A stretch of 64,000 bases of DNA from Rhizophagus irregularis. Taxonomy: Eukaryota; Glomeromycota; Glomeromycetes; Glomerales; Glomeraceae. Below the pieces are notes generated by a model that was not told where the DNA came from, did not search any database, and saw nothing but the letters and a program-made list of their open reading frames with translations. The stretch lies in contig NC_089435.1 in the NCBI RefSeq assembly GCF_026210795.1, positions 434,001 through 498,000 on the forward strand, in the 5' to 3' direction. Below, one piece after another: positions 21 to 64,000 of the stretch (position 1 is its first letter; each line of letters opens with the position of its first letter). A program made the position numbers and the translations under genes.

Positions 21-1294
21 TCATGAATTACTTTGAGTCCTAATCAATAAATGTAATCTGTCTTGCCACTTAAATTTAATTATATCAGATAAACATTTTC
101 TCAAACTTCCTTTTTTTGCATAACTCATTACTATTATATAATTTAAACTATTTGGATCTTTAGTAATTCCACAGAATTGAATAAATTTTGAAAATGATTT
201 TTTTTGACAGGTATAATGATATTTCCACTATATAAATAATAAAAAAATTATTAAATTTTTGCAAGAGAAAATAAATTAGCTATAAAATAATATAAATAAC
301 ATACCTCCTCCAGAAATTTATCATTTAAATTTGATGAATTATTAAGTGTTTTAAGAATAACCTCATAACCTGTTTGAAAATTACATCTATTCCATTGTTT
401 TTTGTCAAAATTCCAACTAAAAATAGGTCCATCTAACCAGATAGCTTTATGAATTTCACTAAATCTTCCTTTATCATAATAATTAATACTTGACAATTTA
501 TCATAAGGTATCCATTCTAAAATTTCATAACTATTCTTAGCTTTTAATTGTGCTTCTTGAATAAATTTATCAATAAATTCATTTTTACTAGTCCACTTTG
601 AAAAATCTTGTTGAAATTGTTTAGTATTACATTGTTGGCACCACTGGTAATAAGTATATGGTTGCTTGCATTCATTACATAATTCACCAGCTTCATTATT
701 ATAACTTACTTCATTACTTCTTGTTGCTCTTTGTTGCCAATAAAAGGCTTTTTCTAAATTCTTTTCTGTTCCTTCACCATTATAATACATACCAGCTAAA
801 TTATTCATTGTACTAGTATTACCATGTTCTGCTGCATTTTGATACCAAGAAAAGGCTTTTTCTAAATTCTTTTCCGTTCCTTCTCCACTATAACAACACA
901 TGGCTAAATTAAACATTGCTTCTTTAACACCGTTTTCTGCTGCTTTTTGATACCAATAAAAGGCTTTTTCTAAATTCTTTTCTATTCCTTCTCCATATTC
1001 ATAACATACGGCTAAATTATTCATTGCATCTGCATCACCATTTTCTGCTGCTTTTTTATACCAGTAAAAAGCTTTTTCTAAATTCTTTTCCGTTCCATTT
1101 CCACCTTCATAACGTATGGCTAAATTAAATATTGCTTCTCTATTACCATTTTCTGCTAATTTTTCTAAAGAATTAATGCATTCTTTACACCATAATTCAT
1201 TAGTAAAAGGTTTACTGCAATATAAACAATTTTCGTTATTTATTGTATTGATATCATTATTTGAAATATTTAAATTGCTAAATTTCGTTCCCAT
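21..1294 (-). pseudogene. Sel1-repeat / protein kinase-like gene, kinase part frameshifted
   Basis: Two exons fit: 305-1294 and 21-227, joined in phase 0 by a GT-AG intron. The product opens with a zinc-ribbon-like motif (C23, C26, W35-C36, C39), then four Sel1-like repeats of about 36 residues (roughly 55-200). A second C-x2-C...WC-x2-C motif and the WIPY/N-lobe segment of a kinase follow. The glycine loop is degenerate (DKGRFS), but the VILK lysine is present. Exon 2 matches the paralogue at 61277-62218 closely until about position 41-70. There this copy lacks 11 bases, shifts frame and stops at 21-23, before the HGD catalytic loop. The broken sequence runs off the left edge. Sel1 repeats mediate protein contacts; a catalytic kinase cannot be made from this frame. 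Probably a pseudogene, though a truncated adaptor-like protein is possible. Confidence 0.75.
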
Positions 1295-1587
1295 TTTTTA
1301 TTTAGAAACTTATTTTATTGAAAGAATTTATTTTTTTTTGACAAATTTTTTTTTATATTTTATTGAGTTTACTAAAAAGGAATACTTGAACCAAAAGTAG
1401 AAGTCACAACAAAAAAAAAAAATTTTTTCGGGTCATATTTTTTCCGATAAACTAATCTGCGACGAGTTAAAATCATAGATAAATATCTATAATAAAATAT
1501 TGAATTTTTCAAAAATTAATCTTGTTATTTTTTTACATTAAGATTATTTGATCATATAATTTTAAAAAAAAATTAAGCGAATGTAAG

Positions 1588-7102: not shown

Positions 7103-7803
7103 GATACCATTTTATACCATTTTTTATTCGTATAGCAAGAAGAAATAACGATGCAAACTATCAATAATTTATGTAATAATAAATTATATAAATTGATAAT
7201 ATCCTTTATAATAGATTTATTCCATGTTTTTTTATTCCATGTTTTGTTTTCTGCATATTCACGTGATTTTTACAGAAATTACGGATCAAATTACAGGGTA
7301 AGTAACATGAAATTCAATTACAAATTTTCAAAAAAAAATAATTTATTTAATTCTAATACTTAATTTTCATTATGTACTCAGTAATACAGATATTCAGCTC
7401 AAAAGCCTCAAATAATTAAGAAGTTTATCAATTAGGTCTTTGCTATACATATCTGAATTGAGGGACCAATTAGATTTTAATAGTCGAAAGTTTCTTTTTT
7501 GCGAATATTTACATTAGATATTGAATAGTAATTTTATACCAGTATTATCTTTTTAATAGTGGAATATGACTTATTGATAAATAAATAACTGCTAGCATCA
7601 AAAAATAATTTTTCTTGTACAAAATATTTATAACATTTATATATCAATTTTGAATCATTCTTTAAAATAATACAAAGTAATTTAATCAATTACAAGCTAC
7701 TTTTATTTATGTAAAAAAAGTTTACATTTTAACTCTATAATCAATGAACAAAAATTATAATATCAAAAATTAATTTCTCATTATAATAAACCTAACAAAA
7801 TCT
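7103..7803. other. Intergenic AT-rich DNA, 3' side of the modular kinase gene
   Basis: About 700 bases with no supported gene. A 70-codon plus-strand frame at 7151-7363 is low-complexity (F, N and K rich) and is not called. The stretch presumably includes the 3' untranslated region and terminator of the minus-strand gene that ends at 7804; no specific signal is resolved. Confidence 0.4.
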
Positions 7804-10800
7804 TTAATTAATCATAAAATTTACCTTAATTGCACAGTCTAAGCAATCAGTATTATCATCTGCGTATTTTGGAAGATTTTCCGTAAAAGGATTGAGTAAT
7901 CTAGATGTATAGAAAGCTTGAGAGTGAGTTGTTGAATGATTATTTTTACCTACTCCATTATTATTGTATCTATATTCTTCTGCTTCTTTGAATTGATCGT
8001 CATTATTTGAATAAAATTGCTTAATTAATTCTTCCACTTCAGCAACATTAGGCCTATTCATTGGATTTAAATCCAAACACTTTATCATTAGGTCAATATA
8101 ACAATTAGGTGCTTCTTGCTCATTTGTTTCTGGTCTAATTCCTTTACAAATATCTAATGCTAATAATCCATCATGAGCACGATTTGCAAATGGTTGTTTT
8201 TCAGTTGCCACAAAATACATCATCATTCCAAAGCTATATATATCTGCTGCTTTAGTATAAGGTCTTCCTCTTAATACTTCAGGAGCTACGTAGGGCATAA
8301 CTCCATAAGTTTTTGTTTCATCTATGTTATTAACTTCTCCACTTGATCCCATATCTGAAATATAGTTTGAAGTAGCCCAATAATAAGTATCCTTAAATAA
8401 TATATTTCCTGTATGAAAATCACGATGAACCATCTGTTTTTGATGCATTTCTTTAAGACCATTAATAATATTATTCAACACTTTTAATTTATTTGACCAA
8501 CTAAAGTTTTTATGATTATTATTTAACCAATTATTAAAATTTCCACCTCTTGCATGTTGAAGAACCATAATATAATCTTCTGTATCTGGGTTTTGAGATA
8601 TACCATATATTTTAAGAATTTCACCAGAATTGTCAAAATTATTAAACCTACTAATTGAATATGCTTTAACCTAAAAAAAGAAAAATAATTACTAATTATT
8701 ATATTTAAGAAAATGTACTCAAATTAAATATTTTCGTACCTCACTTAGAAATTTATTAGAAATATTTTGAGAATCATCTAAACATTTTAAAGCTACCGTT
8801 TTATTTAAATCTCTTGTATATTCCTTTTTATTCCAATATAATGGACCTTCCATCCATCTTGCTGAATATACTTTAGCAAAACCACCTTTACCTATTTCTT
8901 TAATATCATTAAATTGGTTGTATGGTATCCATTCAAATATTATATCATTATGATCATTAATTTTTAATTGCATTTCCTGAATTAATTTATCAATTTGTTC
9001 ATTATTACTGGTCCAGTTCATAAAATTCTCTTTTAAATAATTTATTTGACATGATTTACACCATTTATATTCTGCATTTATATATTTGTTGGCACATTTA
9101 TCACAAAAAATTTTAAAATATTGATTTAATTCAAGGACTATAATATAATTCATTGTATTAGAATTTTGTGATATTCCATACAACTGAAATTCTTTATACT
9201 GTACAATAATCTATTATCAAAAATATTAATATTATAGAAAATATTTAAATTAAATTTACAGAAAATTTACATACCTTGTTCAGAAATTCTTTAGTAATAT
9301 TTTGTGAAATAGTTAGATATATTAAAATAACTACTTTATTTATTGAATTTCTTGTATATTCCTTTTTATTCCAATATAATGGACCTTCTATCCATCTGGC
9401 TGAATATACTTTAGAAAAATTATCTTTGCCTATTTTTTTAATGTCATAAAACTGATTATATGGTATCCATTCAAATATTATATCTCCATGATTATGAATT
9501 TTTAGTTGCATTTCTTGAATTAATTTATCAATAAGTTCATTTTCACTAGACCAGCTTGTGAAATTTTCTTTTAACCAACTTATTTTGCATGATTTACACC
9601 ATTTATACTCCACATTTGTAAAGTACTTTTCACATTTTATACAGTAATTTTCCAAATATTGATCTACATTAAATATCATAACGTAGTCCTTTGTTTTAAG
9701 ATTTTGAGATATGCCATATATATCAACTTTATCATAATATGCTGTAATCTATTAAAAATAAATGTTATTATATCGTAATATACTTGAAATTAATTTCATA
9801 GAAATTTACATACCTCATTTAGAAATTCATAAGTAATATTTTGTGAGTCAACTAAATATTTTAATATAACTGCACTATTTTCTAAACTTCTTGCATATAC
9901 ATTTTTATAATGACTAAATGACAATGGACCATCCTTCCATCTTGCTAAATATGTTGTATGGCTTAATTCTTTGGTATCATTGAATTGATAATATGGTATC
10001 CATTCAAATATTATATCTTTATAATCATTAACTTTTAATTGCATTTTCTGAATTAATTTATCAATAAGTTCATTTTCACTCGTCCAGTTTGTGAAATTTT
10101 CTTTTAACCAACTTATTTCACATGATTTACACCATTTATATTCTGCATTTGTAAAATATTTTTCACATTTTACACAGCAATTTTTCAAATATTGATCTTC
10201 ATTAAATATGACGATGTAATCCATTGTATCAGGATTTTGAGATATACCATATATTTTAATTTTACTATAATACGTTATAATCTATTAAAATAAGTGTCAA
10301 TATATCATAATTTGCTTGAAATTAAATTTATAGAAAATTTACATACCTTATTTAAAAATTCATTAGTGATATTTTGTGAATTAATTAAACATTTTAAAAT
10401 AACTGCTTCATTTGCTGAATTTTTTTTATATCTTTGTTCATTCCAATACAATAAATCATTATTCCATCTTGTTACATATCTTTCTACATTCCAATACAAT
10501 AAACCATCTTTCCAGCTTGCTAAATATGTTGTATTGCTTAATTCTTTAATATCATTAATTTGATTGTATGGTATCCATTCAAATATTACATCTTTGTAAT
10601 CATTAATTTCTAATTGCTCCTTTTGAATTAGATTATCAATTTGTTTATTGCCGCTAGTCCAATTTGTAAAATTTTCTTTTAACCGATATATTTGGCATGC
10701 TTTACACCATTTATACTCTGAATTTGTGTAAAACTTTCCACATGTTACACAGCAATTCTTCAAATATTGATCTTCATTAAATATCATTATGTAATCCTTT

Positions 10801-13441
10801 GTATTAGGATTTTGAGATATTCCATATATTTCAACTTTATCATAATATGCTATAATCTATTAAACATGAATGTCATTATTTTATAATGTACTTGAAATCA
10901 AATTCATAGAAAATTTACATACCTCACTTAAAAATTCATTGGTAATATTTTGTGAATTAATTAAATATTGTAAAATAACTGCTTTATTTGCTGAATGTCT
11001 TATATATTGTTTTTCATTCCAATATAATAAACCATCCTTCCACCTTGCTAAATATGTTGTATTGCTTAATTCTTTAATATTATTGAACTGATAGTATGGT
11101 ATCCATTCAAATATTGTATCATTATAATAATTTATTCCTAATTACATTTCTTGAATTAATTTATCAATATGTTCATTTTCACTGGTCCAGTTTGTGAAAT
11201 ATTCCTTTAACTGACTTATTTCACATGTTTTACACCATTTATATTCCATATTTGTAAAGTACTTTTCACATTTTACACAACAACTCTCCAAATATTGATA
11301 TATATTAAATATCATAATATAATCTCTTGTGTTAGGATTTTGAGATATACCATATATTTTAACTTTATTGTAATATTCTGTAATCTATTAAAAATGAATG
11401 TCAATACATTACTTAAAATTAATACATAGAAAATTTACATACCTCACTTAGAAATTCATTAGTAATATTTTGTGAATCGATCGAATACTTTAAAATAACT
11501 GTCACATTTGCTGAACTTCTTATATATCCTCTTTCATTCCAATATAATAAACCATCCTTCCATCTTGCTAAATATGTTGTATTGCCTAATTCTTTAATAT
11601 CATTAAATTGATAATATGGTATCCATTCAAATATTATATCTTTATAATCACTTATTTCTAATTGCATTTTTTGAATTAAATTATCAACAAGTTCATTTTC
11701 ACTAGTCCAGCTCGTGAAATTTTCTTTTAACCGACTTATTTCACATATTTTACACCATTTATATTCCACATTTGTAAAGTACTTTTCACATTTTATACAG
11801 CAATTCTCCAAATATTGTTCTTTATTAAATACCAAAATGTAATCCGTCGTATTAGGATTTTTAGATATACCATATATTTTAACTTTATCATAATATTCTA
11901 TAATCTATTAAAATGAGTGTCAATATATTATAATGTACTGGAAAGAAATTAAATTCATAAAAATTTACATACCTCATTTAGGGATTCATTAGTAATATTT
12001 TGTGAATTAACTAAATATTTCAACATAACTGCAATGTTTGCTTTATTTCTTGTATATTTATTTTTATAATAACTATATGATAATGGACCATCCTTCCATT
12101 TTGCTAAATATGCTGTATTGCTTAATTCTTTAATATTATTAAACTGATAGCATGGTATCCATTCAAATATTATATCTTTATAATAATTAATTCCTAATTG
12201 CATTTTTTGAATTAGACTATCAATATGCTCATTTTCACTAGTCCAGTTTGTGAAATTTTCTTTTAGTTGACTTATTTCACATATTTTACACCATTTATAC
12301 CTCACATTTGTAAAATACTTTTCACATTTTATACAGCAATTCTCCAAATATTGATCTTTATTAAATACTATAACGTAATCCATTGTATTAGAATTTTGAG
12401 ATATACCATATATTTTGACTTTATCATAATATGCTATAAACTATTGAAAATAAGCGTCAATATATTATAATTTACTTGAAATTAAATTCATAGAAATTTT
12501 ACATACCTCATTTAGAAATTCATTAGTAATATTTTGTGAATCAACTAAATATTTTAATACAACTGCAATATTTGTTAAACTTCTTGTATATACATTCTTA
12601 TAATAACTATATGATAATGGACCATCCTTCCATTTTGCTGAATATGTTATACTGCTTAACTCTTCAATATTATTAAACTTATGATATGGTATCCATTCAA
12701 ATATTACATCTTTATAATTATTAATTTCTAATTGCATTGTTTGAACTAGATTATCAATTTGTTCATTTTCACTAGTCCAGCTTGTGAAATTTTCTTTTAA
12801 CCAACTTATCTGGCACTGCTCACACCATTTACACCAAACATTATGTGCATTTGTATGATACTTTTCACATTTTACACAGAAATTCTTCAAATATTGATCT
12901 TCATCAAATATTATAATATAATTCCTTGTGTTAGGATCTTGAGATATGCCATATATTTTAATTTTATCATAATATGTTATAATCTACGAAATAAGTGTCA
13001 ATATATTATAGTGTATTCGAGATTAAATTCATAAAATTTACATACCTCATTTAAAAATTCATTGGTAATATTTTGTGAATTAACTGAATATTTTAGTATA
13101 ACTTCAATTTTTGCTTTATTTCTTGTATATTCATTTTTATGATAGCTATATGATAATGGACCATCATTCCATTTTGCTGAATGTGTTGTATTGCTTAATT
13201 CTTTAATATTATTAAACTGATGATATGGTATCCATTCAAATATTACATCTTTATAATCATTAATTCCTAATTGCATTGTTTGAATTAATTTATCAATTTG
13301 TTCGTTTTCACTTGTCCAGTTCGCAAAATTTTCTTTTAACCAACTTATTACACATAGCTTACACCATTTATACCGTTCGTTTGTGTATATTTTAGAACAT
13401 TTTACACATGCTTTTCTTAACAAATCTTCCATCCTTGACAC
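7804..13441 (-). CDS. Modular protein kinase with nine tandem zinc-ribbon/N-lobe exons and one C-lobe
   Basis: Ten exons read through GT-AG phase-0 introns of 58-69 bases: 13046-13441, 12507-12983, 11973-12440, 11443-11904, 10923-11384, 10347-10856, 9814-10281, 9275-9748, 8740-9210 and 7804-8670. Every exon length is a multiple of three (about 1,684 residues in all). Exons 2-9 each begin with IYGISQN...DYI, then CxxCEKY...KWCKxC, NFTxWTSEN...IDxLIQ, FEWIPY, a kinase N-lobe with VILK/ALK lysine, and NITNEFLNE. Only exon 9 keeps an intact glycine loop (GKGGFAKV). Exon 10 carries the C-lobe: HRDFHTGN catalytic loop, SDMG in place of DFG, and APE. Exon 9 plus exon 10 therefore form one plausible complete kinase. 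Exon 5 has an in-frame TAA at 11142-11144. It may be skipped without changing frame; otherwise the gene is broken. The start at 13441 is the only Met placed before the first module. Confidence 0.8.
8740..13441 (-). repeat. Tandem array of about 0.53-kb exon-intron units within the kinase gene
   Basis: Successive splice acceptors lie 543, 536, 520, 528, 575, 533, 538 and 540 bases apart. Each unit holds one exon and one intron, with nearly the same donor (GAG or AAG, then GTATG/GTACG) and acceptor (mostly ATAG/ATT). Introns are similar as well as exons, so whole genomic units were duplicated rather than retrocopied. The 575-base unit is longer because of a 48-base internal duplication (10440-10535) that repeats a LLYWN-containing segment. 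Confidence 0.9.
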
Positions 13442-13957: not shown

Positions 13958-14660
13958 CTTAGGGTTGGATCGGTCCTAGCAAAGACCGGTCCTGCATCAG
14001 TCTTGGGACCAGTCTTCACGGTCTTCGGTCTGAAATCTGAGGACCGGTCCAGACCGAAGACCGATCCCATATTATTAATATCCAATAAAAATGAGCCAAT
14101 TTTTGTGCTCATCTACTTCTAGGGCACAGTTTTTGCCAAAACCAATTGTCAGTTCAGTTTTTAACGTTTTCGCAATGTTTTTTATTAAAAAAAACGTGCA
14201 AAACTTTTTTTTCGTGAAATTATTAATAAAAAACGTTTTTGCAACGTTTCCTATTAATAAAATAATTAAAAAAACGTATGAAAACGTTTTTTTTTATTAA
14301 ATTGCTTAATAAAAAACGTTGCAAAACGTAAATTACTTAATAAAAATGTTTTCGCAACGTTGTTTGTTAAAATAATTAAAAACGTTTGCGAAAAACGTTT
14401 TTTTTTATGAACTTATTAATAAAAAACATTTTCGCAACATTTTCTATTAAAATAATTAAAAAACGTTGCGAAATGTTTTTTATTTGTTAAATTACATATT
14501 AAAAAACGTTTCACAACGTTCTTTAATGTTTTAGCATAGTTTAGAGGTCTAAAAATCATTTCTTTAAATTTAATCAGTCCGGTCCCGGTCCGGTCCGGTC
14601 CAGGTTGAAAGACCGGTCTTTTTGGGACTGGACCGGACTGGACCAGACCGATCCAACCCT
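13958..14660. mobile_element. GGTC-rich terminal-inverted-repeat element (hAT-like MITE)
   Basis: The ends carry a perfect 15-base inverted repeat AGGGTTGGATCGGTC (13961-13975 and 14646-14660). It extends inwards as imperfect GGTC/GACC-rich sequence. ATGTATA occurs at 13951-13957 and 14661-14667, consistent with a 7-8-base target duplication. The interior is a run of AACGTTTT / TTTTCGCAACGTT palindromic units. The element at 56914-57290 has the same architecture and the same interior motif. No transposase is present. Confidence 0.65.
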
Positions 14661-34766: not shown

Positions 34767-36290
34767 TCATTGTGATGAAGCGGAAGAATTGGTCAACGTA
34801 TCCCTCTTGTTAGGTCGGTATTCCACTGTTTTAGTTTCATCTGATGTGTATGAAGGAGAACCAAAAAGGTCTGTATGGTAATCAGGCGGGTAGTAAGGCC
34901 GAGGAGCGTACGGTTTGCTCATAAAGTCTTCATAATCTTGATGCTTTTCCATCCATTTCTTCCACTTGTGATGCTGTTTCTTTTTGGAAGGTTTTGGAGG
35001 TGGTGGAGGTTGTTTCATATACTTATGGTAGTCTTTAGTCCAGACCGTAATTTGTCGAGTCAACATTGCTCGACGATAATAATGTTTGAGTGTAGTACCT
35101 ATAGCGTTAGCGGTGGATGAATCGTAATCTAAAGGATTAGATTGACGTATTTCGATACTGGGAGGTAAATCGGGTTGAATAGGGTTGTATTGTAAGTGAT
35201 AACTACTGTCCACTTTTGACGGGTCTACGGGGTTATAACCGTAATAAACAGGAGTACGTTTAAGTGGTTCTAAAGAGCCACCGAGCACCGCAATTTCTTC
35301 AGCATTCAAATAATGGGGGATTGTATTGGCACCAGAAGGCCTATATGATGTCGAAGGTTGTGAACCAACTATAGGCGTAATACTGGAATTCTTCAGCGAA
35401 TGGTAAGGTATGTTAAATGTATAGTCATCGGGATCAGGTAAAAATTTTCCTATTGAAAAACGTTTGAATTTCAGGTGGTGAAGAGGTGAGTAAATGTGTT
35501 GAGATTCATGGAATAGGAAGCGAAAACGTCTCCCTGCTGCGAGTTTATCTTCTTTCATAGTGCGGGATGTAGGGTTAATATTTTTAAACACCCGTGCACA
35601 ATGTCTCTTAAAGCGGGTTTCCTGTTTGCGTTTCGTTACAGGGTTACTGCTGAGGTCGAAGCTGAAATTCGAAAGGTGTTTCCTATAAATGTAGGCGCCT
35701 GGGTGCTTTCGCACGAAATTACTACTGTTGGCTGCATAACATACATTGTATCGAATACCAAGACGATTGGAAAAAATATCATTTTTCCATCGATGTTGCC
35801 AAAGATCATATACATGATTTGCGTGTGAAGATTTTGAATTTATAAATCCTGGGTCTGAATCAGGCACAGGTTTCAGATGGTGGTTGATTTCTGTTCTCGA
35901 GAATTCAGATTGATGAGTACCACAAGCACGTCTATTTAAAGACATGACGAAAGGGCTCGGGCTATGACACCAGGTGAAAGGGTTTAATGAACCAGGTGCG
36001 CAAGCATGTTCACAAGGAATGTAAATGCCAAAGTGGAAGCGATAGCGCTTATAAGAAAACGAGAAGAAAGTGCGGGTAATGGAGTTCTTCAAAGTTCTTT
36101 TAGAAGCACGTGACTTGATAAAGTTAATTTGTTCCAATAATTTCCGGCGAATCAAATCAAAATACTTTTGTTGAATACGTCGAGGTAAAACTTTTTGTAA
36201 AATAAAAAAGTGTGTGAGCATTTTACTAATTTGATATTTTGTGTTAGGCAAATAACTTGTGGATGTGTATCGAATAGGCGTAGAATCCAT
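34767..36290 (-). CDS. Unrecognised 507-residue single-exon protein
   Basis: The longest intronless frame in the window, in sequence noticeably less AT-rich than its neighbours. The N-terminal half is rich in basic and aromatic residues. Around residues 85-125 it has scattered C and H (CEHAC, WCHSP, RRACG), but no spacing I can assign to a known zinc finger. The C-terminal quarter is Y/P/D-rich with a PPPPPKPSKKK segment (about 430-440), a short KKWMEKHQDYEDF helix-like stretch, and repeated YPP/YRP motifs. No signal peptide or membrane segment is obvious. I recognise no family. Neighbours are a SINE-like palindrome downstream and a broken plus-strand frame upstream, so it could be a repeat-borne gene. 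If real, an orphan or lineage-specific protein. Confidence 0.6.
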   Translation of the reverse strand: MDSTPIRYTSTSYLPNTKYQISKMLTHFFILQKVLPRRIQQKYFDLIRRKLLEQINFIKSRASKRTLKNSITRTFFSFSYKRYRFHFGIYIPCEHACAPGSLNPFTWCHSPSPFVMSLNRRACGTHQSEFSRTEINHHLKPVPDSDPGFINSKSSHANHVYDLWQHRWKNDIFSNRLGIRYNVCYAANSSNFVRKHPGAYIYRKHLSNFSFDLSSNPVTKRKQETRFKRHCARVFKNINPTSRTMKEDKLAAGRRFRFLFHESQHIYSPLHHLKFKRFSIGKFLPDPDDYTFNIPYHSLKNSSITPIVGSQPSTSYRPSGANTIPHYLNAEEIAVLGGSLEPLKRTPVYYGYNPVDPSKVDSSYHLQYNPIQPDLPPSIEIRQSNPLDYDSSTANAIGTTLKHYYRRAMLTRQITVWTKDYHKYMKQPPPPPKPSKKKQHHKWKKWMEKHQDYEDFMSKPYAPRPYYPPDYHTDLFGSPSYTSDETKTVEYRPNKRDTLTNSSASSQ

Positions 36291-36657
36291 GTGATAATCA
36301 TTGGTGTGTAAAAATAAATGAAGATTATTGGTGTCCGAGAAAGGATCAGCAAGCTCAAAAAAGAAACTTTTTGAGCGCCTAAATTCATAAATCTTGTTAT
36401 AACCGGTTCAGCGTTTAGTCATCACGTGAAATTTTTTCACAGAGACAAGGAAAGTATTTTCATGAGTATTGGACGTATTATTAAACGTTTTTAAGGGAAA
36501 AGGTAAAGGTAAAATAGTCTGGTCGTTATGAACAGACTGAAGTGGAACAGGTATATCTTCTGTATCCATATCTCTCAGAGGTCAAGGGTAATAAAAGGAG
36601 ACCTTTCCGTAGAGGCCACCGAGTGGTCCTCGCTCCTTACAAAAAATATAAGTATTT

Positions 36658-52422: not shown

Positions 52423-53210
52423 AGTGCTCCGAATGATACGAGTCGACCCGGGTTAATTTGACCCGACTCGACTTTTAAATCGGGTCGGTACTAACGATTT
52501 TTAATGACCCGTGACCCGCATGACCCGCATGACCCGACCCGCCGGGTCGGGTTATAAATTTCCTTGACCCGGGTTTGACCCGGGTTTGACCCGGATCGAC
52601 CCGGATGTTTTTAATTCTGGCAAAATTATAATTTTGGCCAAAATTAAGCCAAGAATTAGTTTTAACAAATATTAACATAGCTTAATCAGAAAAATAAAAA
52701 AATTAACATTTGGCTTTTGAGAATAATATTTTTCTGATAGCTTTAGAATTCCAATTTATCTTTGATTTGAATATCTGCTAATTATTTTGCCTAACTCTTT
52801 GATTTTTATTATATTAAACCAGGTTCAAAATTCGTATTTTTAATTTTATTTTAGATAATTTAGTCTAGGAGAAAAATAAGAGCTAGTGTTACATGTTTTG
52901 TATAACCATTCATGATACAAATTTCAGGATGCTACTAGTGGTTAATCACTAAGTTGCCTTTTTTTCAAATAAAAGGAAATTAATTTTGTTATTATTAGAA
53001 GAAAATCTCACATAATATAAGTTAGTACCCATTTTACTTAAATGTTCGGGTCTAACCCGGGTTACACGAGTTAAATTATACTCGGTCGAGTCAAGGGTCG
53101 GGTTACAAAAATATGAGACCCGAATAAATACGAGTCTTATATTTTTTTATTCAGATCGGGTCGAATATTTCCTCAAAACCCGACCCGACTTGACCCGGTA
53201 GGAGCACTAA
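52423..53210. mobile_element. GGGTC/GACCC-rich hAT-like MITE inserted in an F-box gene
   Basis: About 788 bases with inverted AGTGCTCC / GGAGCACT ends, dense GACCCG / CGGGTC motifs near both ends, and an 8-base flanking duplication TTTCAAAT. The interior has the ATAATTTTGGCCAAAATTA palindrome seen in other elements here. As in 56914-57290, two extra bases lie between the right inverted repeat and the duplication, suggesting one transposase family mobilised both. Confidence 0.8.
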
Positions 53211-54453
53211 TTTCAAATAATTTATTCCAATCGTCTTTTTCAAAGGGAGAAAATTCATTCAATTCCATAATTTCTAATTCAATTAAAAATTGACAATGAA
53301 TTAATATATTTTCAACTTCTGGAATATCACTATCAACCAATGATAATTGAAGATAACTAAGATTTGGACAATTTTTATAAATTACTTGTATAAGCTTTTC
53401 ATTATCAGTGGTATTTTGAAAAAGAATACTAATTTTATTAAGTTGACCTTTTGTATTTTCAATTAAACTTGCTAAAATTTTAGATGAGATATATCGAGTT
53501 TTTAGACATTTTAAATGAGGTAAAAATAGATTTTCTAAATGTTTAAAATGTGCTTTGTGAGTAGGTTGTATTTTTAAACTTACTAAATTTATAAGGTATG
53601 AAAGATAATTTGTAATAGGTATCCACCTTATTTTTAAATACTGGATAGTATCTGCACATTTAATTAGCGATTCTTCAAGTGTTTTAAAATATGTATCATA
53701 AATAATAAATCCATTTCTGTCTAAAACAGCAAGATCCTTTAGTTCTTCTTGAGCTCTAATTATTGAAAAATATGTTTCATGCCTATTTTCAACAAATATA
53801 TTACCGAAATTGACTTTTTTTAGGCTTTTTTGTGCCTCAATTAATCTAATGATTCCGGGATTATTCTTTAAGTGATTAATTTCAAATATCAACTTTTTAA
53901 TTGATGTGTTTGTTATAGCCAAACTCTCTAAAACATTACTATTGATTTTAACATCACAAGAACAGTATTTAAGTTCTGAAAAACAAGATTCAGTCCCTGT
54001 AATATGAATACGGTCTAGATTTTGAATAGAAAGAGAAATAAATTTTGTATTCATATTAAATAGATTCAATATTTCATTTCCAACTTTATATATAATATCT
54101 GAATGATTATATTTAATATTTGGATGATTAGTTATGATACATTCTAAAAAATTTAAATCCAAATGTCTCCAAAAACTAATATAATTATATAATAAAGGTC
54201 TCTGATCTTCAAAAAATTCAAATCCTTGTTTCTTTAAATTATTTCTTGATTTTTCTGATAAATGTGAAAGTATTACTTGTAAAAAACTTTTTTCGTTATT
54301 AATATGATCTTTTCTAGTAGGATTTTTCCATAAAATTGGAATGGTTGTTTCACACAAATCCTTATTAACTAAAAGGCATGAACGAATAGTTTTGTAATCA
54401 TCTTGTAATTCTTCTAATATTAGGAGAATTATGTCTTTGTTAAGCTTTTCCAT
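53173..54453 (-). CDS. F-box protein, C-terminus truncated by insertion
   Basis: The 426-residue frame starts MEKLNKDIILLILEELQDD and continues with SCLLVNKDLCETTIPILWKNP, the usual fungal F-box form (residues about 3-45). The F-box would bind Skp1 in an SCF ubiquitin ligase. The remainder, about 370 residues, is a leucine/isoleucine-rich region with repeated L-x2-L-x-I patterns consistent with irregular leucine-rich repeats for substrate binding. The last eleven codons (ending SSRVGF) come from the inserted element; the native C-terminus of about 105 residues lies at 52104-52422. The truncated protein may still be made. Confidence 0.8.
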   Translation of the reverse strand: MEKLNKDIILLILEELQDDYKTIRSCLLVNKDLCETTIPILWKNPTRKDHINNEKSFLQVILSHLSEKSRNNLKKQGFEFFEDQRPLLYNYISFWRHLDLNFLECIITNHPNIKYNHSDIIYKVGNEILNLFNMNTKFISLSIQNLDRIHITGTESCFSELKYCSCDVKINSNVLESLAITNTSIKKLIFEINHLKNNPGIIRLIEAQKSLKKVNFGNIFVENRHETYFSIIRAQEELKDLAVLDRNGFIIYDTYFKTLEESLIKCADTIQYLKIRWIPITNYLSYLINLVSLKIQPTHKAHFKHLENLFLPHLKCLKTRYISSKILASLIENTKGQLNKISILFQNTTDNEKLIQVIYKNCPNLSYLQLSLVDSDIPEVENILIHCQFLIELEIMELNEFSPFEKDDWNKLFEISAPTGSSRVGF

Positions 54454-54499
54454 TTTTTAAAACGAAGAAAATTGGTTTTTTTCTTATTTTTTTTTATAG

Positions 54500-61276: not shown

Positions 61277-63754
61277 TTAATCTACAACCATACATTCAAA
61301 ACACTCAGACTTTTCTTGAACGATTTCCTGAACTATGAATTTGGACTTTTCTTGAGCTAAAATTTCAGTAAATTTAGTAAATTTGCGACTTGTATAATAT
61401 GCTTGTGGATGAGATTGCATAATAGAAGTATTTGCTTGTTCTTGTGCTAAAGTTTTGTTTGCTTCTACAAATTCAAGCATATCATCTTTTAATTGATTAT
61501 CAATATTATGTACTACAAAGTTATAATCTCCATCCCTGTTTATTGCATAATATTCATTATTACATCTAATCCATCCAGATACAATATTTTCAAGCATTCC
61601 TATGGTTGGTCTATTTGAGGGATTTGAATCCCAACATTTTTTCATTAAATCTATATAACATTTTGGAGTATTTTTTATAATTTCAGGACGTTCCCCTTTA
61701 CAAATATTCAAGGTAAGGTCATAATCATGTGCTTCATATTTAAATGGGGGAATACCTGATGTAAATTCCCACATTATCATTGAAAGACTATAAATATCAC
61801 TTGCTGAAGTATAGGGTTTGTTTCTTAATATTTCAGGAGCCATATAAGGTAAAACTCCATAAATTTCATCATCATCATTACCAGAATCTTGTGAATTGTT
61901 TATAGGTTTACATAATCCTAAATCAATAATAAATAATTCATTGTAATTATCTGACATTAATATATTACCATCATGAAAATCGCCATGAGTTAAATTTGAT
62001 TCATGAATTACTTTAAGTCCTAATATAATTGTTTTCAATAATTGTAGCTTATCTTGCCACTTAAATTTAATTATATCAGGTAAACATTTTCTCAAACTTC
62101 CTTTTTTCGCATAACTCATTACAATTATATAATTTAAATTATTTGGATCTTGAGTAATTCCAAAGAATTGAATAAATTTTGAAAATGATTTCTTTTGACA
62201 ATTATAATGATATTTCCACTATATAGACGATAAAAAAATTATTAAATTTTTTGCAAAAGAAAATAAAATTTGCTATTAAAATAAATACTATACCTCATCC
62301 AGAAATTTACTATTTAAACTTGATGAATTATTAAGTATTTTAAGAACAACCTCATAATCTATTTGTCTATTCCATTGTTGTTGTTTAAAATTCCAACTAT
62401 AAATAGGTCCATCTAACCAGATAGCTTTATGGATTTCTCCAAATCCTCCTTTATCATAATAATAAATACTTGACAATTTATTATAAGGTATCCATTCTAA
62501 AATTTCATAACTATTTTTAGTATTCTGTTGTGCTTCTTGAATAAATTTATCAATAAATTCATTTTTACTAGTCCATTTTGAAAAATCTTGTTGAAATCGT
62601 CTAGTATTACATTGTTGACACCACTGATAATCAGTATATGGTTGCATGCATTCATTACATGATTCAACTTCATTTTTAGAATTTACGTTATTTTCTGCTA
62701 CTTTTTGATACCAATAAAAAGCTTTTTCTAAATTCTTCTTTGTCCCTTCTCCATCATAATACCAATTGGCTAAATTAAGCATTGCTTTAATATGATCTTT
62801 TTCTGCTGCTTTTTGGCACCAACGAAAGGCTTTTTCTAAATTCTTTTCTGTTCCTTCTCCATTATAATAGCTATTGGATAAATTAAACATTGCTACTTCA
62901 TCACCATTTTCTGCTGATTTTTGAAACCAATGAAAGGCTTTTTCTAAATTCTTTTCTGTTCCTTTTCCATTATAATAATTACTGGCTAAACTAAGCATTG
63001 CATTAATACACCCATTTTCTGCTGCATTTTGATTCCAATAAAAGGCTTTTCCTAAATTCTTTTCTGTTCCTTCTCCATTTTTATAACATATGGCTAAATC
63101 TTTCATTGCATACTTCTCGCCATTTTCTGCTGCTCTTTGAAACAAATAAAAGGCTTTTTCTAAATTCTTTTCTGTTCCTTCTCCATTTTTATAACTAGTT
63201 GCTAAATTAAACATCGCTACTTCATCACCATTTTCTACTGCTTTTTGATACCAATAAAAGGCTTTTTCTAAATTCTTTTCTGTTCCTTTTCCATAATAAT
63301 AACTATCAGCTAAATTATTCATTGCTTTAATATAATCTTTTTCTGCTGCTTTTTGATACCAATGAAAGGCTTTTTCATAATTCTTTTCTATTCCTTTTCC
63401 ATCATAATAACTATTGGCTAAATTATTCATTGCTTTAATATAATCTTTTTCTGCTGCTTTTTGATACCAATAAAAAGCTTTTTCATAATTCTTTTCTGTT
63501 CCTTCTCCATTTTCATAGCATATAGCTAAATTAAGCATTGCTTTTTCATAACCATTTTCTGCTGCTTTTTGATACCAATGAAAGGCTTTTTCATAACTAT
63601 TTTCTGTTCCTTCTCCATAATAATAACTATCAGCTAAATTAAACATTGCTACTTCATTACCATTTTCCGTTGCTTTTTGATACCAATGAAAGGCTTTTTT
63701 ATAATTATTTTCTGTTCCTTCTCCATGATAATAACTATTGGCTAAATTATTCAT
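61277..63754 (-). CDS. Sel1-repeat protein kinase
   Basis: Two exons: 62294-63754 (from the first Met after a stop) and 61277-62218, with a 75-base phase-0 intron. The product has ten Sel1-like repeats of 36 residues (M-x-N-L-A-x-x-Y...GEGTEKN-x-EKAF-x-WYQKAAEN) covering about residues 1-355. The zinc-ribbon-like CNEC...WCQQC follows, then the kinase: GGFGEI in the glycine loop, VVLK lysine, HGDFHDGN catalytic loop (HRD arginine replaced by glycine), IDLG metal-binding loop, APE, and WDSNPSNRP near the C-lobe end. The tail has SHPQAYYTSRK, a motif shared in form with the modular kinase tail. Likely a cytosolic Ser/Thr-type kinase or pseudokinase with a protein-binding superhelix. An in-frame stop at 63785 lies just upstream, so the true N-terminus is uncertain. 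Confidence 0.75.
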
Positions 63755-64000
63755 TGCTACTTCATCACCATTTTCTGCTGCTTTTTAATACCAATAAAAG
63801 GCTTTTTCTAAATTCTTTTCTGTTCCTTCTCCATTATAATAGCTATTGGATAAATTAAACATTGCTACTTCATTACCATTTTCTGCTGCTTTTTGATACC
63901 AATGAAAGGCTTTTTCATAATTCTTTCCTGTTCCTTTTCCATTATAATAACTATTAGCTAAATTAAACATTGCTACTTCATCACCATTTTCTGCTGCTTT
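62700..64000 (-). repeat. Tandem 108-base Sel1 repeat array
   Basis: Twelve or more units of exactly 108 bases are conserved at DNA level, for example TTTTCTAAATTCTTTTCTGT on the plus strand in most units. This indicates recent unit duplication and exchange. Units differ mainly in KNL against KNY after GTE and in the linker (NGDEVA, KDYIKA and so on). Confidence 0.9.
63785..64000 (-). pseudogene. Upstream Sel1 repeats cut off by an in-frame TAA, continuing off the window
   Basis: Two more 36-residue Sel1 units and part of a third read in the same frame as the gene below. The codon at 63785-63787 is TAA where all aligned units have CAA (WYQKAA). Either the gene is split by this nonsense change, or translation of the downstream part starts afresh at 63754. 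The frame runs past the right edge. Confidence 0.65.

Follow-up and report, generated by a model that had tools for sequence, protein, structure and literature searches.

Arrays of zinc-ribbon/N-lobe modules ahead of a single kinase domain in Rhizophagus irregularis

A ten-exon gene with nine modules and one C-lobe

The window is a stretch of 64,000 nucleotides from contig NC_089435.1 of Rhizophagus irregularis. On its minus strand, from 13432 to 7804, it carries a gene of ten exons and nine introns in which nine modules, each comprising a zinc ribbon, a linker and an N-lobe up to the helix-C Glu, are followed by a single C-lobe. The ATG lies at 13432-13430, and the end given in the initial annotation, 13441, falls 9 bases upstream. 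The features are as follows.

13046 to 13432, minus strand: exon 1, start codon, zinc ribbon CxxC..CxxC, WTSEN linker, N-lobe without Gly-Gly loop, helix-C Glu last
12507 to 12983, minus strand: exon 2, strand 4/5, zinc ribbon and degenerate N-lobe
11973 to 12440, minus strand: exon 3, strand 4/5, zinc ribbon and degenerate N-lobe
11443 to 11904, minus strand: exon 4, strand 4/5, zinc ribbon and degenerate N-lobe
10923 to 11384, minus strand: exon 5, strand 4/5, zinc ribbon and degenerate N-lobe, broken by an in-frame TAA
11142 to 11144, minus strand: in-frame TAA stop in exon 5, codon 679 of the spliced frame
10347 to 10856, minus strand: exon 6, degenerate N-lobe/zinc-ribbon module with a 48-nt duplication inside, last residue K
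9814 to 10281, minus strand: exon 7, degenerate N-lobe/zinc-ribbon module, first genome-search query
9275 to 9748, minus strand: exon 8, module with the loop GKDNFSKVY, VAxK lysine substituted, last residue K
8740 to 9210, minus strand: exon 9, terminal module with GKGGFAKVY loop, VALK lysine and helix-C Glu
7804 to 8670, minus strand: exon 10, strand 4/5 and kinase C-lobe (HRDFHTGN, DMG, APE), Pfam Pkinase 108.5 bits
8671 to 8739, minus strand: intron 9, 69 nt, phase 0
Gaps between the listed exons, minus strand: introns 1-8, 58-68 nt, phase 0

As the initial annotation had proposed, all ten exons are multiples of three (387, 477, 468, 462, 462, 510, 468, 474, 471 and 867 nt for exons 1 to 10), the nine introns (58-69 nt) are all in phase 0 and the repeats are spaced by 520-575 nt. 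Introns begin with GTATGT and end with TAG, except for the last one (GTACGA...TAG). They had also been described as alike in sequence, which holds for introns 1-7 (78-86% between neighbours), less so for intron 8 (67% alike to intron 7) and hardly for intron 9 (58% to intron 8). Regarding the module boundaries, the last residues of exons 1-9 fall at helix C (...EFLNE and variants, K being final in exons 6 and 8). Exons 2-9 in turn start on the strand-4/5 segment (IYGISQN...DYI and variants), followed by CxxC; both boundaries agree with the earlier description. The earlier view that an intron within the N-lobe marks where the unit was cut is borne out by single-module loci, taken from contig 1 as its first 20 isolated EWIPY sites: 15 of them have the same phase-0 site after the helix-C Glu. 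Adjacent exons are 62-77% identical in protein and, with like arrays at 20 of 20 further loci, this confirms a repeat pattern well beyond chance.

Exons 9-10 together contain the Gly-rich loop, the VAxK lysine, the helix-C Glu, HRD and APE, with DMG replacing DFG, and exon 10 also matched PK_Tyr_Ser-Thr with 99.9 bits. The terminal domain has thus the hallmarks of a eukaryotic protein kinase, and its motifs support the earlier proposal of a poly-module gene with one putatively catalytic kinase at its end. Following published papers, we take this kinase as a putative member of the tyrosine kinase-like (TKL) group. Among the 21 genes that we examined closely, HRD and DMG were each found in 19 and APE in 21. 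The window array has a single C-lobe, its last part, and the internal exons gave no C-lobe match, so the gene lacks the two or more whole two-lobe domains of a tandem pseudokinase-kinase protein.

Because of the TAA in exon 5 (11144-11142), which the initial annotation had overlooked, the full-length frame of the window gene is not open as read. Skipping of exon 5 would be frame-neutral. The locus may encode a 678-residue kinase-less protein, or the full-length one by exon 5 skipping, or it may be a recently damaged copy. Stops and frameshifts were checked at four loci, with one stop each in L007 and L017 and a frameshift in L009 besides the window stop, so that at least 4 of the 21 genes carry a stop or a frameshift. 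Stops are present in 6 of the 288 module exons described below.

Scanning single modules with Pfam gave no match above the curated cut-offs; zinc-ribbon families scored below theirs (Zn_ribbon_NOB1, 17.2 against 24.9; DZR, 15.1 against 27.3; Spt4, 14 against 25), and weak matches to Med28, Stc1 and CspB were discarded for the same reason. The best AlphaFold2 model of exon 7 reached a pLDDT of 66 (44-48.5 for the other four) and had no significant match in the PDB (best E 1.1). A model led by exon 9 had a pLDDT of 57 overall, with about 72-85 in the strand-4/5 and strand 1-3 segments and less than 50 in the zinc ribbon. Kinase domains (RIPK2, EGFR, PAK) were among its top structural matches, none of them significant (best E 0.44), and a profile search of solved structures gave only non-significant hits to IQGAP1 and ribosomal protein L37 (E of 1.3 and 2). 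Models this weak (pLDDT 66 and 57) say nothing on the string of modules.

The initial annotation had called the product receptor- or scaffold-like. Using a simple hydropathy scale instead of a trained predictor, and judging the signal peptide by eye, we saw no transmembrane segment in the window protein: the top 19-residue mean was 1.01, with none above 1.6. Hence, a receptor-like product in the membrane sense finds no support, and we prefer 'scaffold' to 'membrane receptor'.

A genome-wide family of module arrays

The window gene is not a single odd gene. Module exons occur on 24 of 32 contigs, where at least 288 distinct ones form 124 clusters, and we rejected a one-off gene on these grounds. 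The number of exons is a lower bound, given that the three genome searches each scored only 150 candidates, out of 4,259, 4,364 and 4,359. The 21 genes have 3 to about 12 modules each; the raw count was 3-13 pieces per gene, with a split module counting as two until merged by eye, and arrays running up to the border of a fetched stretch may be longer than counted. Arrays of the window-gene build were present at 20 of 20 further loci, and 19 of them had a C-lobe within the fetched stretch. These loci were chosen as those most similar to exon 7 of the window gene and are not a random sample.

Splice phases are kept almost everywhere in the arrays: 148 of 149 module ends have a phase-0 GT, and of the 140 module starts that were resolved 139 have a phase-0 acceptor; among exons with both ends, 110 of 112 are divisible by 3. 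One unit pair in L019 is identical at 548 of 550 positions, and module number differs between two related genes, L010 (four) and L012 (six). The donor phases, the L019 pair and these module numbers uphold the claim that copy number can change without loss of frame.

Motifs, selection and descent of the modules

All 20 single-module kinases and 20 of 21 terminal modules have the Gly-Gly loop, versus 3 of 114 scorable internal pieces (Fisher p = 1e-19; 122 internal pieces in total, 8 unscored). Pieces from arrays with no C-lobe in the fetched stretch (the first arrays of L002 and L003, and L019; n = 17) were left out of the terminal and internal counts. That only the terminal module keeps the loop went unnoticed in the initial annotation, and no other observation speaks as strongly for a division of labour; with loops this rare and no C-lobe match in internal exons, the internal modules do not qualify as active kinases. 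Given that many genes are built alike and have the loop only in the last module, the arrays look like a large, hitherto undescribed family of signalling proteins.

Among full-length modules, the VAxK lysine is present in 19 of 19 terminal and 97 of 107 internal ones, and the helix-C Glu in 19 of 19 and 58 of 107. The four cysteine columns, which make up the two conserved pairs of a zinc ribbon, hold Cys throughout in each of the 19 terminal and 107 internal modules, a count biased towards intact modules as it leaves out broken and partial ones. A strict spacing pattern was passed by 19 of 19 and 104 of 107, respectively, and by 109 of 122 internal pieces when broken and partial ones were included.

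In the eight adjacent module pairs of the window, dN/dS ranged from 0.29 to 0.52 with all upper bootstrap limits below 1, and it was below 1 in all 36 pairs, which argues that the window modules are constrained in protein sequence. By region, values were 0.29 for zinc ribbon plus linker and 0.57 for the N-lobe. Three L005/L006 module pairs gave 0.25-0.47 (upper limits below 1). In the young pair L013/L014 values were 0.31-0.85, with limits that include 1 in 4 of 6 module pairs, and 0.69 (0.44-1.20) in the C-lobe. One L010/L012 module pair reached 3.0 (1.0-7.6) and one in L015 1.27 (0.5-5.1).

The terminal modules of the window gene, L001, L002 and L003 group together in the tree (SH-aLRT 98), and a second clade with equal support (SH-aLRT 98) takes in 18 of the 22 internal modules of these genes, so by phylogeny the terminal and most internal modules descend separately within the window subfamily. 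Besides, five of the six L013 modules are resolved sisters of the same-position modules of L014. Family-wide, terminal modules form no single clade: 10 label changes are needed, and starred branches force at least 4 of them. For both L004 and L016, the terminal module clusters with internal modules of its own gene.

One could argue that the arrays are decaying, with internal exons left over from tandem duplication, and that the terminal module and the C-lobe alone matter. Stops or frameshifts in at least 4 of the 21 genes, the lack of the loop in internal modules and the weakly or unclearly constrained young pairs would fit, but full-length internal modules keep every cysteine although the loop is nearly always gone, phases are retained almost everywhere, and the window dN/dS (0.29-0.52) has its minimum in zinc ribbon and linker. 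We find this reading unlikely. We hold it quite unlikely that the array is an alternative-splicing cassette, in which any single module exon is joined directly to the shared C-lobe exon to give many kinases per gene, as with mutually exclusive exons. In principle any module could be so joined, given the common helix-C end, the near-universal phase-0 donor and the phase-0 exon that follows; yet products built on internal modules would probably be dead kinases for want of the loop, and such a choice requires neither the mostly separate internal and terminal histories of the window subfamily nor the six modules kept in order in both L013 and L014.

Separate transcription of every unit as a small gene would suit the regular units and the stop in one of them, but it is very improbable and we rejected it, since the 58-69 nt with intron-like ends between window units leave little space for a promoter and a terminator, and nearly all module ends carry phase-0 donors. 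False multiplication of a single unit during assembly, a known hazard with tandem repeats that the L019 pair brings to mind, is scarcely credible and was likewise rejected: adjacent window units are no more than 62-77% identical in protein, module exons recur across 24 contigs, and a long-read assembly of the species, presumably the present one, has been published (PMC10234402).

Proposed function and comparison with known systems

According to these results, the array and the kinase probably form one polypeptide, in which catalytically dead but constrained N-lobe/zinc-ribbon modules regulate one terminal kinase and module number changes by duplication of phase-0 exons. The sequences themselves show the arrays, their phases, the loss of the loop from nearly all internal but not from terminal modules, the retention of zinc cysteines, the protein-level constraint on the window modules and, within the window subfamily, the separate descent of terminal and most internal modules; the remaining steps are put forward as a model. 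The unit exon, strand 4/5 of one N-lobe plus zinc ribbon, helical linker and strands 1-3/helix C of the next N-lobe, would have gone through many rounds of tandem duplication, with phase-0 introns on either side. A single mRNA would be spliced through the whole array, and consecutive exons would fold as a cytosolic string of zinc-ribbon/pseudo-N-lobe domains. This string might bind partners or ligands, or oligomerise, and so control the C-terminal catalytic domain, while gain, loss and divergence of modules could alter specificity.

More tentatively, the products might be a new class of modular recognition protein, in which N-lobes freed from catalysis and fused to zinc ribbons serve as a repeat unit for evolvable binding surfaces, arranged in arrays of 3 to about 12 before one kinase. 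This plant symbiont might have perhaps 100 or more such genes, whose unit number would be altered by recombination between phase-0 introns; repeat number plays a comparable part in immune receptors. If so, half a kinase domain would have become a repeat unit with built-in length change. If many R. irregularis kinases are poly-module proteins with modules that escape standard domain models, annotation has missed the part likeliest to carry specificity. We know of no accepted reason for the expanded kinase repertoire of this fungus.

Our literature search did not find a poly-module zinc-ribbon/N-lobe kinase architecture, while kinase expansion in R. irregularis is published (PMC6123716, PMC8647823, PMC10234402, PMC4771724), as is that of tyrosine kinase-like genes (PMC4219462, citing Tisserant 2013). 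The repertoire is reported to comprise 2,533 genes (PMC10234402). Its C-lobes are of the kind found in the window gene; the relevant passages of these accounts count kinase genes or domains and make no mention of zinc-ribbon/N-lobe arrays.

The window also contains Sel1-repeat kinases (62291-63784 with 61280-62218, and 254-1297). As in the module arrays, repeats precede the same type of N-lobe and C-lobe and feed one kinase, but the repeated part is Sel1 repeats and not kinase N-lobes. Plant tandem kinase proteins and animal JAKs carry one or more dead kinase units ahead of an active kinase in one chain, and in such tandem pseudokinase-kinase proteins each unit is a whole two-lobe domain. In the module arrays, by contrast, only the N-lobe recurs; each copy stops at helix C and is joined to a zinc ribbon, and there are up to about a dozen copies. 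Finally, the arrays share duplicated tandem exons with the alternative-splicing systems described in PMC9013439, whereas the loss of the loop in nearly all copies but the last argues against their free exchange.

Exon structure of the window gene

The kinase gene of the window has ten exons, each with a length divisible by three, and nine introns of 58-69 nt, all in phase 0. Its spliced frame comprises 1,681 codons plus the stop. Strand and helix C names are those that we assume from the usual kinase motifs, and not from a solved structure.

Features of the window kinase gene
13432-7804, minus strand: whole gene, ten exons
Exon 1: start codon, zinc ribbon (CxxC...CxxC), linker LKENF.NWTSEN..., EWIPY motif, strands 1-3, helix C up to the glutamate
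Exons 2-9: in each, a strand-4/5 segment, then the exon 1 unit again
Exon 10: strand 4/5, then the kinase C-lobe with HRDFHTGN, DMG and APE
11144-11142, minus strand: in-frame TAA in exon 5

The initial annotation had described this layout of exons and modules correctly, but had overlooked the TAA of exon 5. Pairs including this stop-bearing exon gave dN/dS values no higher than the others (0.36 and 0.29), so the stop would be either recent or tolerated. Exon 6 contains a 48-nt tandem duplication that keeps the frame (10418-10527). Just ahead of the exon 10 stop, at around 7816, there is a possible splice donor (AAG|GTAAAT), which may lead to a further, short final exon. Upstream of the gene, 14160-14490 contains several repeats whose cores resemble AACGTTTT.

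A family of module arrays

Using the exon 7 protein as a query against its own genome (146,748,485 bases, 32 contigs), we scored the best 150 of about 4,300 candidates. Among these, 148 start no later than query residue 11, and hence contain the junction between strand 4/5 and the zinc ribbon. Two further searches, with modules from other loci as queries, also scored the best 150 of about 4,300 each, so the union of the three gives lower bounds: at least 288 distinct module exons in at least 124 clusters, on at least 24 of the 32 contigs. Successive gaps between scored module exons measured 480-620 nt in 115 of 164 cases, and 53 of the 124 clusters showed one scored exon only, with unscored neighbours possible there. 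The window gene thus belongs to a family and is not a single case. The EWI[PS]Y coding pattern, common to array genes and single-module kinases, occurs 2,679 times in the genome versus 10 for the reversed control; among the 100 occurrences listed, which cover contig 1 and the beginning of contig 2, 50 were in arrays and 50 isolated, as judged by eye. The intact-loop pattern GKGGFxxVY gave 154 occurrences versus 1 in the control.

The 20 further array loci analyzed (L001 and following) were sampled by similarity to the window, and are hence not random. Including the window gene, 21 genes had their C-lobe inside the fetched stretch. In L002 (reverse-strand offsets 7117-8256), C-lobe matches fall in two open frames some 0.8 kb apart, as by insertion or a long intron.

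Regarding splice phase, a phase-0 GT was present at 148 of 149 module ends (140 good sites and 8 weaker), the remaining end being in phase 2. For the 152 exons with a strand-4/5 match, the acceptor was in phase 0 in 139 and in phase 2 in one, from a search that demanded that the frame stay open as far as the motif and is therefore biased toward in-frame sites; four lacked a usable YAG and eight a donor in reach. Length was divisible by three in 110 of the 112 exons with both ends. Of the 20 single-module loci (the first isolated EWIPY sites on contig 1), 15 likewise end their kinase exon with this same phase-0 site after the helix-C glutamate, so the boundary is probably ancestral.

Divergence and descent of the modules

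We compared terminal modules (the last before the C-lobe) with the internal ones preceding them. The Gly-Gly ATP-binding loop was found in 20 of 21 terminal modules versus 3 of 114 scorable internal pieces (Fisher p = 1e-19; 122 pieces in all, 8 without a loop score). Some internal modules keep a partial loop, such as GKDGF in L012. All 20 single-module loci have the Gly-Gly loop, the first glycine often being T or A. The four cysteines were present in every full-length module (19/19 terminal, 107/107 internal), with strict spacing in 104 of the 107 internal ones. The VAxK lysine was found in 19/19 terminal and 97/107 internal modules, and the helix-C glutamate in 19/19 and 58/107, its most frequent internal substitute being lysine (37). 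By these counts, the loop was lost inside arrays and the zinc ribbon retained. The sole terminal module without the loop is that of L005. In the tree it pairs with module 3 of L006 (SH-aLRT 99), which points to loss of the terminal module from L005. Like window exon 5, one module in each of L007 and L017 carries a stop; one module of L009 has a frameshift.

The eight neighbouring module pairs of the window gave dN/dS values of 0.29-0.52, every upper limit being below 1, and all 36 window pairs were below 1. By region, values were 0.29 for the zinc ribbon plus linker, 0.49 for strand 4/5 and 0.57 for the N-lobe. L005/L006 pairs ranged from 0.25 to 0.47, also with upper limits below 1. Judging by these ratios, constraint on the window and L005/L006 modules is clear. 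For the young pair L013/L014, values were 0.31-0.85 in the six modules and 0.69 in the C-lobe, and most of the limits extended to 1. Higher values came from one L010/L012 pair (3.0, 1.0-7.6) and one L015 pair (1.27, 0.5-5.1). Constraint does not show clearly in the young pairs.

A tree of 153 modules (130 columns, loop columns removed; 68 of 150 forks open) joined the terminal modules of the window gene, L001, L002 and L003 in one clade (SH-aLRT 98), and 18 of their 22 internal modules in a second (98). Five of the six L013 modules were resolved sisters of the same-position L014 module, the sixth pair being left without resolution, and internal modules of L009, L011/L015 and L008/L018 mostly clustered inside their own gene or gene pair. 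Across the family as a whole, the terminal label needed 10 changes versus 18.3 in shuffles, so it is more clustered than chance; the 153-module tree did not recover terminal modules as a single clade. The terminal modules of L004 and L016 cluster with internal modules of their own gene, and separate descent of the two classes, as read from this tree, therefore holds in some subfamilies only. Module duplication is still in progress, since one unit pair in L019 is identical at 548 of 550 positions.

Possible working and related kinases

The best explanation of the family is an array of dead but constrained modules regulating one terminal kinase and built by phase-0 exon duplication; we consider it somewhat better than an even bet, with separate descent in some subfamilies only counting slightly against it. 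The junction exon would have arisen by tandem gene duplication and a later deletion that removed everything between the hinge of the first copy and the zinc ribbon of the second. The product would be a single chain of zinc-ribbon/pseudo-N-lobe beads ending in one active kinase, with helix C from one exon packing against strands 4/5 from the next. A structure model of exon 9, of low confidence overall, has moderately confident strands in both halves, which is compatible with packing across exons and no proof of it. No transmembrane segment is visible in the window protein.

The module-array architecture was not found among the open-licence papers searched, which does not prove its absence in print. 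That kinases are enriched or expanded in these fungi is mentioned in PMC6123716, PMC8647823, PMC10234402, PMC4771724 and PMC4219462.

Other open frames of the window
61280-63784, minus strand: Sel1-repeat kinase, with ten Sel1 stretches (Pfam), a zinc-ribbon/N-lobe match and a C-lobe exon
254-1297, minus strand: second Sel1-repeat frame, cysteine-rich at its start and also matching the N-lobe
34770-36407 (546 residues) and 53176-54456 (427 residues), both minus strand: no Pfam match at E 0.01

The second Sel1-repeat frame seems to run on beyond the window, given a strand-4/5 match at 24-227. The Sel1-repeat kinases have a plan similar to that of the array genes, with repeats ahead of a kinase, but their repeat is Sel1, unlike the module of the arrays.
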